Shown one piece after another: positions 17,233 to 21,662 of a stretch of 64,000 nucleotides of DNA. The notes under the pieces were generated by a model. The model had not been told where the DNA came from, made no database searches, and was given only the letters and a program-made list of their open reading frames with translations. The DNA is from Peredibacter starrii (lineage in GTDB: Bacteria > Bdellovibrionota > Bacteriovoracia > Bacteriovoracales > Bacteriovoracaceae). A program made the translations under genes and the position numbers. Within the stretch, counting starts at the first letter, position 1. Each line of letters begins with the position of its first letter. The DNA is taken from the NCBI RefSeq assembly GCF_034259205.1, contig NZ_CP139487.1, positions 682,001 through 746,000 of the forward strand. Direction: 5' to 3'.

Positions 17233-18180
17233 ATGAAGAAAGTATTATTGACAGGTGCAGCGGGACTAATTGGGGCCAAGACAGCGGAAAAGCTACTTGC
17301 TCAGGGGATTGAAGTTGTTGGGATTGATAATCTTAATGACTATTACGATGTTAACCTTAAGCACTACCGACTATCTCAAATTAAAGATCCAAAGTTTCAT
17401 TTTCACCAAATTGATATCGAAGACAAATCCAAATTGCGTGAACTGTTCAAAGCGAACCGATTTGATGTGGTTTTTAACCTGGCCGCTCGAGCTGGTGTTC
17501 GTTATTCGATGGAAAACCCAGATATTTACATGACCACAAATGCGATGGGGACTTTAAATCTCCTTGAATGCATGCGTGAGTTCAAGGTCTCTAAGTTTGT
17601 ATTGGCATCTACCAGCTCTTTGTATGCAGGTCAGGCGATGCCTTTCAAAGAGGACCTTGCAGTAAACACTCCGATTTCTCCTTACGCTGCTTCAAAAAAA
17701 GCCGCAGAGGTAATGGCCTACACTTATCACTATTTGTACGGCATTGATGTTTCGATCGTTCGATACTTCACCGTTTATGGGCCTGCAGGCAGACCTGATA
17801 TGTCGCCGTTTATCTTTGCTGATAAGATTTTAAAAGGTGAAGAGCTTCCTGTGTTTGGTGATGGTACTCAATCAAGAGATTTCACTTTCGTGGATGATAT
17901 TGCTGAGGGGACCATTCTTGCGGGCAAGAAACTTGGTTTTGAGATCATCAATCTAGGTGGCGGTAATAATCCTTATACGCTTCTTCAGATGATTGAACTT
18001 ATGGAGAAGTTTTCAGGTAAGAAAGCAAAACTTAAATTGGGTGACCGAATTAAGGCCGATATGGATGTGACTTGGGCGGACATTTCGAAAGCAAAAAGGC
18101 TCCTCGGATGGGAGCCTAAGATTTCATTTGAAGAGGGGATCGCGAGACTAGTGAAGTGGCATCAAACCACTTCTCTTTAA
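17233..18180 (+). CDS. NAD-dependent epimerase, UDP-glucuronate 4-epimerase-like
   Basis: A 315-residue extended SDR enzyme. GAAGLIGAKTAEKLL is the NAD-binding loop, GIDNLNDYYDVNLKHYRL is typical of the UDP-glucuronate 4-epimerase (CapI/GAE) group, and the catalytic YAASKKAAE is preceded by STSSLY. It would make UDP-galacturonate or a related 4-epimer for the glycans encoded further right. No obvious Shine-Dalgarno. Its TAA shares TTAA with the convergent lipoprotein gene. Confidence 0.82.
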   Translation: MKKVLLTGAAGLIGAKTAEKLLAQGIEVVGIDNLNDYYDVNLKHYRLSQIKDPKFHFHQIDIEDKSKLRELFKANRFDVVFNLAARAGVRYSMENPDIYMTTNAMGTLNLLECMREFKVSKFVLASTSSLYAGQAMPFKEDLAVNTPISPYAASKKAAEVMAYTYHYLYGIDVSIVRYFTVYGPAGRPDMSPFIFADKILKGEELPVFGDGTQSRDFTFVDDIAEGTILAGKKLGFEIINLGGGNNPYTLLQMIELMEKFSGKKAKLKLGDRIKADMDVTWADISKAKRLLGWEPKISFEEGIARLVKWHQTTSL

Positions 18181-18572
18181 AATTTCTCAGTTCTAAAAGT
18201 ATAAGTTCTTAAAGTTTTGTCTTGATGAAAATGCAGAACAAGCGATGCTGTTTTTGTTGATGAAGAGCTAGAGTCGCCCCCTACATTCATCCCTGTCCAG
18301 TTCCAAAAACCCGCACTAGATATATAGTGAGAGATTCCTCCACCTACAGAACTACTTTCATTAGATCGGCGGCTATATGCCCACATATCTCCCTCTGGAG
18401 TCTTTTCAACGACATCTGGGGTTCCGAAATTTTCTAAAACTTGAGATTGGCTAGTTTTGCCTTTGACCAATTTGTCATTTATTTCCAAGGCATTGATTTT
18501 TGTTTGAGATTTCTCTGTGCTCGAACAAGCAACTGTAACAAGAGCGATAAAGATAAGTGATGTGATTTTCAT
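18177..18572 (-). CDS. Small lipoprotein with BamE/SmpA-like domain
   Basis: A 131-residue protein with a lipoprotein signal (SLIFIALVTVAC, then SS) and a short BamE-like segment, KGKTSQSQVLENFGTPDVV, followed by a strand region with a Ser/Gly-rich insert near residues 70-100 that is unusual for BamE. BamE-fold proteins sit in the outer membrane and often assist beta-barrel assembly or other envelope jobs. Whether it is BamE itself is doubtful because of the insert. Its Shine-Dalgarno is buried in a hairpin (see next entry). Confidence 0.7.
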   Translation of the reverse strand: MKITSLIFIALVTVACSSTEKSQTKINALEINDKLVKGKTSQSQVLENFGTPDVVEKTPEGDMWAYSRRSNESSSVGGGISHYISSAGFWNWTGMNVGGDSSSSSTKTASLVLHFHQDKTLRTYTFRTEKF

Positions 18573-18603
18573 ATAACCCTCCTTTAAAGGTTAGGAGGGT
18601 TAT
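18573..18603 (-). promoter_or_regulatory. Perfect hairpin sequestering the lipoprotein Shine-Dalgarno
   Basis: On the minus strand the arms ATAACCCTCCT and AGGAGGGTTAT are perfect 11-base complements around a nine-base loop; the 3' arm contains AGGAGG, five bases before the ATG that immediately follows the stem. If it folds in mRNA the ribosome site would be closed. It has no U-tract, so a terminator role for the upstream toxin-antitoxin transcript is less likely. Confidence 0.65.
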
Positions 18604-18634
18604 AAATCAAAGAACTGATTACGGTCGAAGGTAA

Positions 18635-18844
18635 CTAGAACTGCTTAGCTCTATTTTTCATTTCTGAAAGGACGCGTGTTAAAAGTTCACGGCAATCCCC
18701 ATCATCCATTCCATGAAGCATGTGGCTTGGAGGTAGATTCTTTTCTCCACCGCGGCCGAATGATTCAAGACGGTTGTTGATATTGTTACGAAGTGTTCTT
18801 AATTTTTTGTCAGAGAATTCTGATAAATCAGAGTAGTCTTTCAT
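18635..18844 (-). CDS. 69-residue protein, third gene of the toxin-antitoxin operon
   Basis: I do not recognise it. It is a soluble, charged, mainly helical protein (SDKKLRTLRNNINNRLESFG, then a loop GRGGEKNLPPSHML, then ELLTRVLSEMKNRAK). It starts eight bases after the antitoxin stop with AAAGGACC ahead of the ATG, so it is almost certainly cotranscribed with the toxin-antitoxin pair. Whether it modulates the pair, or is a passenger, cannot be read from the sequence. Confidence 0.6.
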   Translation of the reverse strand: MKDYSDLSEFSDKKLRTLRNNINNRLESFGRGGEKNLPPSHMLHGMDDGDCRELLTRVLSEMKNRAKQF

Positions 18845-18852
18845 AGGTCCTT

Positions 18853-19161
18853 TTAGGCAACTGAAACTTTTAAATTAAGTCCCACATGGTTAAGTTGATC
18901 TTGGAGTGCGAGTTGTACCCAATATGATTCAGGCTCTTTAAGTTTGCAAGCAATTAAGGCGGCCCTTTCCGGACTAGGTATCCTTCGACCTTTTTCTAAG
19001 TCGCAGAGTGAAGCTTGTGAAATTCCAAGGATTTTTGCAAATTCCTTTTGAGAAAGTTCATCAGCGAGCCTGTAGGCTTCAAGCAATTTACCAAATGTTA
19101 ACCGGCCAAAGTCCTTTTCCAGTTCTTTGGACCCGTATTTAATTTTTCGTTTAGTAGTCAT
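18853..19161 (-). CDS. XRE-type HTH antitoxin (HigA-like)
   Basis: A 102-residue protein with one helix-turn-helix of the Xre type, LSQKEFAKILGISQASLCDLEKG in residues about 36-58 with IPSPERAA after it. It overlaps the toxin gene by 11 bases and follows it, the order known for higBA modules. The N-terminal 30 residues and the C-terminal tail (VQLALQDQLN) would bind the toxin or the partner subunit. It should repress its own operon through the operator upstream of the toxin. Confidence 0.83.
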   Translation of the reverse strand: MTTKRKIKYGSKELEKDFGRLTFGKLLEAYRLADELSQKEFAKILGISQASLCDLEKGRRIPSPERAALIACKLKEPESYWVQLALQDQLNHVGLNLKVSVA

Positions 19162-19426
19162 GTTTATTGACCTCTTCTACTTTGATAATCTTCATGATTC
19201 CAGATTCGGCTTCGGAGTAAATGGCACGGTAAGCCTTATTTAATCTAATGGATCGTGTTCCCGCTCTTGAGCCTTTGAGAGGTTCATCGTGATAGCCTGG
19301 AATTTTACGCATTTCTTCGATTCCTTCGCTCTCTACTCCTTCAACCCATCTTTGTAATTTTACAATAATATAGGGTGGGAGCTTTCTTAGGTCCTTTTGG
19401 ACCAAGCTCAAATCAACTCGAATCAC
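19151..19426 (-). CDS. RelE/HigB-superfamily toxin
   Basis: A 91-residue small basic protein with RelE-superfamily features: LRKLPPYIIVKLQRWVEGVE helix, PGYHDEPLKG loop, then SIRLNKAYRAIYSE and IIKVEEVNKHDY, which ends with the conserved His-Asp-Tyr. Family members cut mRNA on the ribosome. It starts with GTG (AAGGA upstream) and is first in the operon. Key residue Arg/Lys and the terminal HDY are present, so activity is plausible but untested. Confidence 0.83.
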   Translation of the reverse strand: MIRVDLSLVQKDLRKLPPYIIVKLQRWVEGVESEGIEEMRKIPGYHDEPLKGSRAGTRSIRLNKAYRAIYSEAESGIMKIIKVEEVNKHDY

Positions 19427-19437
19427 AGATCTTCCTT

Positions 19438-19493
19438 ATTGTATGTCAGTTTGACGTATTTTTAAAGTACTTCAAATGAACTTAACCTGTTCA
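19438..19493 (-). promoter_or_regulatory. Putative promoter and operator of the toxin-antitoxin operon
   Basis: On the minus strand a -10-like TACAAT (19443-19438) lies 11 bases before the toxin GTG. Further up, TGAAC and GTTCA (19477-19481 and 19489-19493) form an inverted repeat with seven bases between, a good candidate for the antitoxin binding site. No strong -35 is visible. Confidence 0.4.
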
Positions 19494-19529
19494 AATTATT
19501 AATGAGGATCAGATTACAAAAAAAGGGAG

Positions 19530-20270: not shown

Positions 20271-21662
20271 TTATCTTTTCTTGCGAAATTTAAATCCAAC
20301 TTTCGCTGGTTCTTTATTATCTTTTCTTTCTTCACGACGAGGACCACCTTGGCCTTTAGAAGCAGGTCTGTGCTCTGGGCGCGGTCTTTGTTCCTGACGT
20401 GGTTTTTGCTCTGGCTTCGGCCTTTGCTGTTGTCCTTGTCCCTGAGGCTTCTGAGGTTCTTTGGCCTTCGGTTTAGCTCTTGGATCACGGTATGGTTTGC
20501 GATCAGTCTGAGTCATCTTTACCGATTGTTCAGCTACTCCAACGAACGTTTCTGTTGGAAGTTTTTTGCCAATTGTTTTTTGGATACGCGCTAAAGCATC
20601 TCTTTCAGTTTCATCACAGAATGAAATGGCATCGCCATCTTTACCTGCACGGGCAGTTCGGCCGATACGGTGAACGTAACTTTCAGCTTCAACTGGAAGG
20701 TCGTAGTTAATCACGTGAGAAACGCCTTGCACGTCAATTCCTCGAGCGGCAATATCAGTCGCAACTAGTACCTTAATCTTACCTGTCTTGAAATTTTCAA
20801 GAGCTGTTTCACGGGCAGATTGAGATTTATTTCCGTGAATCGCGGCCGATTGAATATTGAAGTGAGCAAGATAATCTACGATCTTGTTTGCACCGTGTTT
20901 TGTACGAGTGAAAACAAGAGTGAGTTCAACACCTTCTTCAACAAGAACCTTGCGAAGAAGTTGATACTTATAGGCCTTCTGAGTGAAGATCACTTTTTGA
21001 TTAATTCTTTCAACCGTGGTTGATGGAGGAGTTACTTCCACCTTCGTTGGGTTTTTAAGAATGCGATTAGCGATACCAACGATTTCATTCGGCATAGTTG
21101 CCGAGAAAAGCATGGTTTGTTTTTGCTCAGGAAGTTTTGCGATGATCTTTTTGATATCGTGGATGAAACCCATATCAAGCATGCGATCCGCTTCATCTAG
21201 AACGAAGATTTCTACTTTGTTCAGTTTACAGTGACCTTGGTTCATTAGATCTAGAAGACGACCTGGAGTCGCAATCAGAACATCTAGGCCGTTACGAAGA
21301 GCTGCTACTTGAGCTGCTTGTCCTACGCCGCCGAAGATAACTGCATTTTTTACTTTAAGATTACGTCCGTACTTATCAAGTTGCTCTTTGATTTGAGAAG
21401 CAAGCTCGCGAGTAGGGGCCAGAATCAATGAACGAGGCTCACAAGGAGTGAGGCTGAAATTACGACCTTGAAGCTTCTGAAGCATTGGAAGCGTGAAGGC
21501 CGCAGTTTTACCCGTACCAGTTTGAGCAATTCCTAGAAGGTCATGGCCCTCTAAAAGTGTAGGAATTGACTGTGCCTGAATAGGGGTTGGAGTTTCGTAG
21601 CCCGCAACTTCTAAGTTAGCGAGAATAATTTCGTGAAGAGCGAGTTCTTTGAATTTTAACAT
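20271..21662 (-). CDS. rhlE: DEAD-box RNA helicase, RhlE-like
   Basis: A 463-residue ATP-dependent RNA helicase. The Q motif ends in PTPIQA, motif I is AQTGTGKT (46-53), motif Ia PTRELA, motif II DEAD (156-159), motif III SAT (187-189), and the C-terminal domain has VATDIAARGID and HRIGRTARAG. A basic tail rich in Pro, Gln, Arg and Lys (about the last 80 residues) would contact RNA. Such proteins help ribosome assembly and mRNA turnover, often in the cold. RhlE is the nearest subfamily; DbpA/SrmB are less likely. Confidence 0.88.
   Translation of the reverse strand: MLKFKELALHEIILANLEVAGYETPTPIQAQSIPTLLEGHDLLGIAQTGTGKTAAFTLPMLQKLQGRNFSLTPCEPRSLILAPTRELASQIKEQLDKYGRNLKVKNAVIFGGVGQAAQVAALRNGLDVLIATPGRLLDLMNQGHCKLNKVEIFVLDEADRMLDMGFIHDIKKIIAKLPEQKQTMLFSATMPNEIVGIANRILKNPTKVEVTPPSTTVERINQKVIFTQKAYKYQLLRKVLVEEGVELTLVFTRTKHGANKIVDYLAHFNIQSAAIHGNKSQSARETALENFKTGKIKVLVATDIAARGIDVQGVSHVINYDLPVEAESYVHRIGRTARAGKDGDAISFCDETERDALARIQKTIGKKLPTETFVGVAEQSVKMTQTDRKPYRDPRAKPKAKEPQKPQGQGQQQRPKPEQKPRQEQRPRPEHRPASKGQGGPRREERKDNKEPAKVGFKFRKKR

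Follow-up and report, generated by a model that had tools for sequence, protein, structure and literature searches.

A conserved hairpin encloses the Shine-Dalgarno sequence of a BamE-like lipoprotein gene in Peredibacter starrii and may act as a lock on read-through mRNA

In the chromosome of Peredibacter starrii, the Shine-Dalgarno (SD) sequence of a small lipoprotein gene is enclosed in a hairpin that ends at the start codon, which raises the question of how, and on which transcripts, this gene is translated. The initial annotation of the window (the whole 64-kb stretch of DNA analyzed here) had described a perfect 11-bp hairpin holding the SD within its stem, with the ATG right after it. 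This description was confirmed: AGGAGG lies in full within the stem, whose 11 pairs are all Watson-Crick, and a twelfth pair (U18604-A18572) engages the A of the ATG (Table 1). The 3' end of the 16S rRNA, GGATCACCTCCTTT, is present in two copies in the genome, and the enclosed SD is thus canonical. The hairpin dominates the local fold, with a minimum free energy of -23.2 kcal/mol over 111 nt (z = -3.42) and none of 200 shuffled sequences equally stable. No second copy was found in the whole genome with up to three mismatches allowed, and a search of positions 17900-19500 against Rfam returned no matches at E values up to 1.

Table 1. Features at the lipoprotein locus, in coordinates of the window
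Feature	Position	Strand	Remarks
SD-sequestering hairpin	18573..18603	-	11 bp, 9-nt loop; kept in five genus orthologues, P. starrii included
5' (anti-SD) arm ATAACCCTCCT	18603-18593	-	core CCCTCCT invariant in five orthologues (pair table)
Hairpin loop AACCTTTAA	18592-18584	-	9 nt
3' arm AGGAGGGTTAT	18583-18573	-	entire SD within; abuts ATG
Lipoprotein start codon ATG	18572-18570	-	directly 3' of the hairpin's 3' arm
BamE-like small lipoprotein gene, 131 aa	18177..18572	-	PF04355 below cut-off, and Foldseek
Candidate -10 hexamer TATAAC, overlapping 5' arm	18599..18604	-	inferred; TATAAR in loop of four relatives
orf69, conserved small protein	18635..18844	-	ends about 30 nt before hairpin
HTH antitoxin-like gene (HigA-like)	18853..19161	-	not at this place in four relatives
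HigB/RelE-like toxin gene	19151..19426	-	PF05015 just under cut-off; TIGR02385 above cut-off
DEAD-box RNA helicase gene	20271..21662	-	upstream gene of unit; Pfam

The hairpin was compared with a background sample of 464 kb of the P. starrii genome (the window and 20 stretches), in which a simple ORF rule called 438 genes, 324 of them with an SD of at least 4 nt. Among these 324 genes the lipoprotein stem ties as the longest perfect stem covering an SD, the other 11-bp stem being that of L113:713, whose SD match is only 4 nt; when G-U pairs are counted as well, longer stems are found at three of the 324 (12, 13 and 16 pairs). When the upstream bases were shuffled around a fixed SD, only one of 5000 sequences reached 11 bp, and none of 203 control genes matched the 13.5 kcal/mol needed to open the SD in a 60-nt context. 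The opening energies of four relatives described below were reached by 1, 1, 0 and 6 of these controls. Long stems do arise in this genome, as illustrated by a 9-bp SD hairpin before L098:14902 that is not kept in relatives: of the nine that carry it (47-60% identity), seven have a start and an SD under the scoring rule, and their best stem measures 4 bp. Given the shuffling result and the retention of pairing in all five orthologues, however, it is extremely improbable that the lipoprotein hairpin is due to chance.

Conservation of the pairing, which the initial annotation had named as a check together with folding and energy calculations, was borne out in P. starrii and in all four orthologues found in the genus. 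The lipoprotein gene is present in five of 26 genus genomes, P. starrii included, with stems of 11 bp in P. starrii, 10 in G009, 9 in G003, 10 in G012 and 10 in G018, all of them ending at the ATG or at most 3 nt from it. The 7-nt cores of the two arms, CCCTCCT and AGGAGGG, are invariant, whereas the gap between them ranges widely (9, 21, 19, 19 and 25 nt in P. starrii, G009, G003, G012 and G018, respectively). Outside the core, both bases of the second and third pairs differ between species, and these pairs are broken in one and three of the five orthologues. Identity to P. starrii is 56-61% in the intergenic region and 70-73% in the coding sequence; the leaders of G003 and G012 are 92% alike, so that the five orthologues amount to about four lineages. 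Among named genomes the relatives are limited to these four, and viral contigs yielded none. At 16 orf69 loci of the genus that lack the lipoprotein gene this hairpin is never found, seven of them having some other stem of at least 8 bp within 260 nt, which indicates that hairpin and lipoprotein gene occur together in this sample.

The surroundings of the gene are less constant. The four relatives share the order helicase gene, orf67, hairpin, lipoprotein gene, VapB-VapC and convergent epimerase gene, with the start of orf67 overlapping the helicase stop (Pfam searches covered the helicase and VapBC of G003 and the helicase of P. starrii, the genes of other relatives being named by likeness). 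In P. starrii, an HNH gene and HigBA sit between the helicase gene and orf69, and VapBC is missing downstream of the lipoprotein gene. The initial annotation had proposed that the upstream toxin-antitoxin operon reads into the hairpin and that a translating ribosome might open the stem. Read-through is plausible, as the scan lists no terminator on the minus strand from HigBA to the hairpin and the ORFs upstream are co-directional, but the toxin-antitoxin operon is not a conserved partner. Opening by a ribosome is unlikely: the upstream small ORF terminates about 26-30 nt short of the 5' arm in four species, the distance being larger in G018, and a ribosome at a stop codon occupies roughly the next 12-15 nt, so that translation coupling should not open the stem.

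In the energy model, opening AGGAGG costs 13.4-16.7 kcal/mol in the five orthologues on an RNA that starts 150 nt upstream, and 4.2-5.8 kcal/mol if the RNA starts at ACCTT; on upstream-initiated RNA the SD is thus predicted to be sequestered in a stable helix, as in the T4 gene e type of control. Because the SD is buried, the pairing is kept and a U-run is absent, the earlier reading of the hairpin as a translational gate rather than a terminator is supported, and RNA bearing the hairpin is very probably locked at the level of translation.

Whether every transcript of the gene carries the hairpin depends on where transcription starts. A MAFFT alignment of the five leaders revealed an invariant block, TTATAA, located 6-7 nt before ACCTT[T]AAGGAGGG; it falls in the loop in the relatives and over the 5' arm in P. 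starrii, which has a shorter loop. Each of the five has a -35-like hexamer with four of six matches 18 nt upstream of this -10-like box. Hexamers at least as good are found at 15-19 nt for 53 of 200 -10-like hexamers in the P. starrii genome, and TATAAT is not enriched at any particular distance upstream of 336 of its genes, so that the case for a promoter comes down to conservation in about four lineages. Short leaders of this kind do seem to occur in the genus, since at L098:14902 a TATAAT immediately ahead of the SD is retained in three of nine relatives, as judged by eye. Moreover, -10-like hexamers precede 8 of 17 SD hairpins of at least 6 bp, against 117 of 569 (P = 0.015; 7 of 16 and P = 0.034 without the lipoprotein gene), a post hoc and unreplicated enrichment that is only a hint. 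We regard the evidence for an internal promoter within the hairpin as suggestive only, with about an even chance that it exists. A transcription start between hairpin and ATG had been named as grounds for abandoning the gate, and this objection applies in part: the conserved TATAAN suggests that transcription begins within the hairpin, in which case only read-through mRNA would be locked. At 18682-18653, before the entire hairpin, there is a weak promoter-like site, and if it were used the gene's own mRNA would also be locked. None of the literature matches listed, 10 of 26, mentions transcription start sites in these bacteria.

Taken together, these features suggest, tentatively and with somewhat less than even probability, a cis-acting translational lock on read-through mRNA of the T4 gene e type. 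Polymerase entering from the helicase-orf69 unit, which here also includes HigBA, would produce an RNA with both arms, on which CCCTCCT would pair with the AGGAGGG of the SD up to the AUG and block 30S binding. The gene's own transcript would begin between the arms, from a -10 box in the loop in the relatives and over the 5' arm in P. starrii. With a leader of 16-19 nt and no 5' arm it would be translated, leaving only the read-through mRNA locked. The lipoprotein would then be made on the schedule of its own promoter, regardless of upstream context. The promoter, its start site and the purpose of the lock are inferred; the lock perhaps keeps messages from upstream genes from yielding lipoprotein.

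Several known systems resemble this arrangement. RNA thermometers, too, enclose an SD in a hairpin ahead of the start codon. The lipoprotein stem differs from them in being perfect, in matching no Rfam family and in staying shut between 10 and 60 °C: in the energy model the mean probability of AGGAGG being unpaired is 0.005-0.013 from 10 to 42 °C, and opening the SD is still costly up to 60 °C. The IS10/Tn10 transposase is protected from outside promoters by fold-back of the RNA, and the read-through RNA proposed here would likewise fold over the start region, although no transposase gene is present. A close parallel is found in phage T4, where the SDs of gene e (lysozyme), soc and I-TevI are buried in a helix on long transcripts (PMC3014915, PMC2988022). 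At gene e, late promoters in the region encoding the 5' strand of the helix give rise to short transcripts without that strand, and the structure is described as lowering lysozyme synthesis about 100-fold (PMC3014915); I-TevI follows the same scheme (PMC2988022). The lipoprotein locus shares with these genes an SD within a helix, and its candidate promoter would likewise be placed so that its transcript lacks the helix 5' strand; the locus differs in lying on a bacterial chromosome and in having a sigma-70-like candidate promoter in place of a T4 late promoter. In the ISPpu9 transposase leader of Pseudomonas putida, structure is thought to bury the ribosome-binding site, and weakening it raised translation (PMC8450116); there the structure is opened by an antisense RNA, whereas none was seen at the hairpin studied here and the gene encodes a lipoprotein. 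The kind of control is therefore already known, and what is new is a chromosomal candidate for it. If the proposal holds, the T4 device of a gene silent on long messages and active on its own short one would operate in a chromosomal gene of the Bacteriovoracaceae, and would offer a simple test case of how acquired genes shield themselves from transcription at a new site.

Other explanations assign the hairpin a different role. All transcripts might be locked, with opening in trans by the DEAD-box helicase of the unit, by a small RNA base-pairing with the 5' arm or by an RNA-binding protein. The perfection and stability of the stem would fit such an opener, as would the overlap of the helicase gene with the ORF preceding the lipoprotein gene in the four relatives and the SD hairpins of farther homologues, which have no -10 box in the loop. 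Rfam, however, gave no match in the region, inspection by eye revealed no helicase beside the farther homologues, and a lipoprotein match is missing from 17 of the 22 genus genomes that have orf69, making opening in trans rather unlikely. The hairpin could also be a constitutive damper that holds translation at a very low rate and involves no switch. SD hairpins are indeed recurrent, with stems of at least 5 bp at 47 of 912 SD genes and at least one CCTCCT...AGGAGG...ATG arrangement in 85 of 129 family genomes. Placing a canonical SD under a lock of 13-17 kcal/mol would nonetheless seem a costly route to low translation when a weaker SD would do, and we consider a damper distinctly unlikely.

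Two further alternatives make the RNA structure secondary. The arms form an inverted repeat overlapping a possible promoter, as would be expected if a transcription factor bound the DNA and the RNA hairpin were a by-product; a dimer operator is not expected to tolerate the observed variation in the distance between the cores, and in the four relatives HigBA does not occupy this place, so that an operator is very improbable. The position of the hairpin after a co-directional operon might instead mark it as a decayed terminator, and terminator-like structures do lie directly after orf69 in G004 (a 15-bp hairpin) and G011 (an 11-bp hairpin). Against this, no U-run follows the stem on either strand and the hairpin is missing from the terminator scan. 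Moreover, of 16 lipoprotein-free orf69 loci of the genus, 9 have no stem of at least 8 bp (loop of 3-19 nt) within 260 nt after orf69, and the stems at the other seven differ in sequence. We judge a terminator origin highly improbable.

The 131-aa product carries what we take to be a lipoprotein-type signal sequence. It matches the BamE model PF04355 with an E value of 0.0069 and 16.6 bits, under the curated cut-off of 23.2, and five of seven lipoprotein family members match this model at E values up to 10. The predicted structure is of modest quality (mean pLDDT of 62.6), and its top Foldseek matches in the PDB are BamE chains (probability 1.00, E value 0.03), none reaching an E value of 0.001 or better. 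On this model-based evidence we describe the lipoprotein as BamE-like and do not call it BamE. A link between SD hairpins and exported proteins was also considered. In the first sample, which included the lipoprotein, signal peptides were predicted for 9 of 16 P. starrii genes with SD hairpins of at least 5 bp against 62 of 268 (P = 0.006). The link disappeared on fresh stretches, scored with a stricter signal-peptide rule written beforehand (5 of 20 against 107 of 460, P = 0.52), and was rejected; pooling old and new data gives P = 0.03, a value owed entirely to the discovery data.

A profile search of 129 genomes identified 17 with a match, at 19 loci; 14 of these loci, together with G048 from a separate search, make up 15 far loci. 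Their SD opening energies exceed those of the 203 controls (Mann-Whitney P = 0.011), one control, L127:2084, being itself a homologue, which works against the effect. When perfect stems were compared with shuffled sequences in 14 far homologues, only G107 (P = 0.0014) and G098 (P = 0.048) had longer stems than expected, with a clear hairpin of 8 bp and one of 6 bp, respectively. G143, G146 (L087) and G129 have stems of 4-5 bp that shuffles often matched, and 9 of the 14 scored loci lack even a perfect 4-bp stem over the SD. The hairpin was accordingly rejected as a trait of all homologues: it is recurrent yet far from universal across the family. G034 has a hairpin recognized by eye, but no SD under the scoring rule, and was left out of the shuffling; its lipoprotein copy (L014 / L089) is apparently frame-broken near the start. 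No -10 box in a suitable place was found in the SD-hairpin homologues of G107, G098, G143 and G146, and in G098 and G034 no called co-directional gene lies close upstream.

orf69 is present in 92 of 129 family genomes and in 22 of 26 genus genomes. The toxin-antitoxin neighbours of the lipoprotein gene vary: HigB and an HTH partner in P. starrii, G034 and G107 (the HigB-type toxins of G107 and P. starrii scoring under the Pfam cut-off), VapBC in the four relatives, BrnT with a CopG/BrnA-like partner in G069, Phd-like and ParE proteins in G146 and a Fic/Doc gene in G129. Across 16 genomes, 3 of 26 HigB and ParE hits fall within about 1.5 kb of a lipoprotein locus, where about 0.03 would be expected, these families having been chosen after the neighbours had been seen. 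It is conceivable, if unlikely, that the BamE-like lipoprotein gene is a mobile gene that moves in the company of varying toxin-antitoxin modules and brings along its own lock on read-through, an insulator of the T4 type on a chromosome, whose pairing is kept though the 5' arm shifts relative to the -10 box. Integron cassettes were considered because toxin-antitoxin modules adjoin the gene, and were not supported: none of 16 genomes has an integron integrase above the family cut-off, the best partial match, in G030, scoring 117 bits against 265. Models of defence proteins gave no match. The loci L003-L006 of the four relatives have a long palindrome overlapping the region just before vapB, CACCTCTTTTG...CAAAAGAGGTG in two and near variants in the rest, which may be the VapBC operator.

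SD hairpins and related palindromes were also observed elsewhere. P. starrii and G003 have SD hairpins in common at two other genes, which we take to be a ferredoxin-like gene (L113:10593 / L154:15180) and a flagellar hook-like gene (L113:12538 / L154:13239), the arm sequences of the former differing between the two genomes. A leader of the form CCTCCT...GCGGCCCC...AGGAGGT...ATG recurs in one other genus (G062, G063, G067 and G073). Finally, a palindrome close to CCTCCTAGACTTGAAGCAAACATTCAAGATAGGAGG is found in G085, G086, G088, G089, G091, G092 and G107, where some genomes have it several times and it sometimes lies close to the end of a contig, and is possibly the end of a mobile element.
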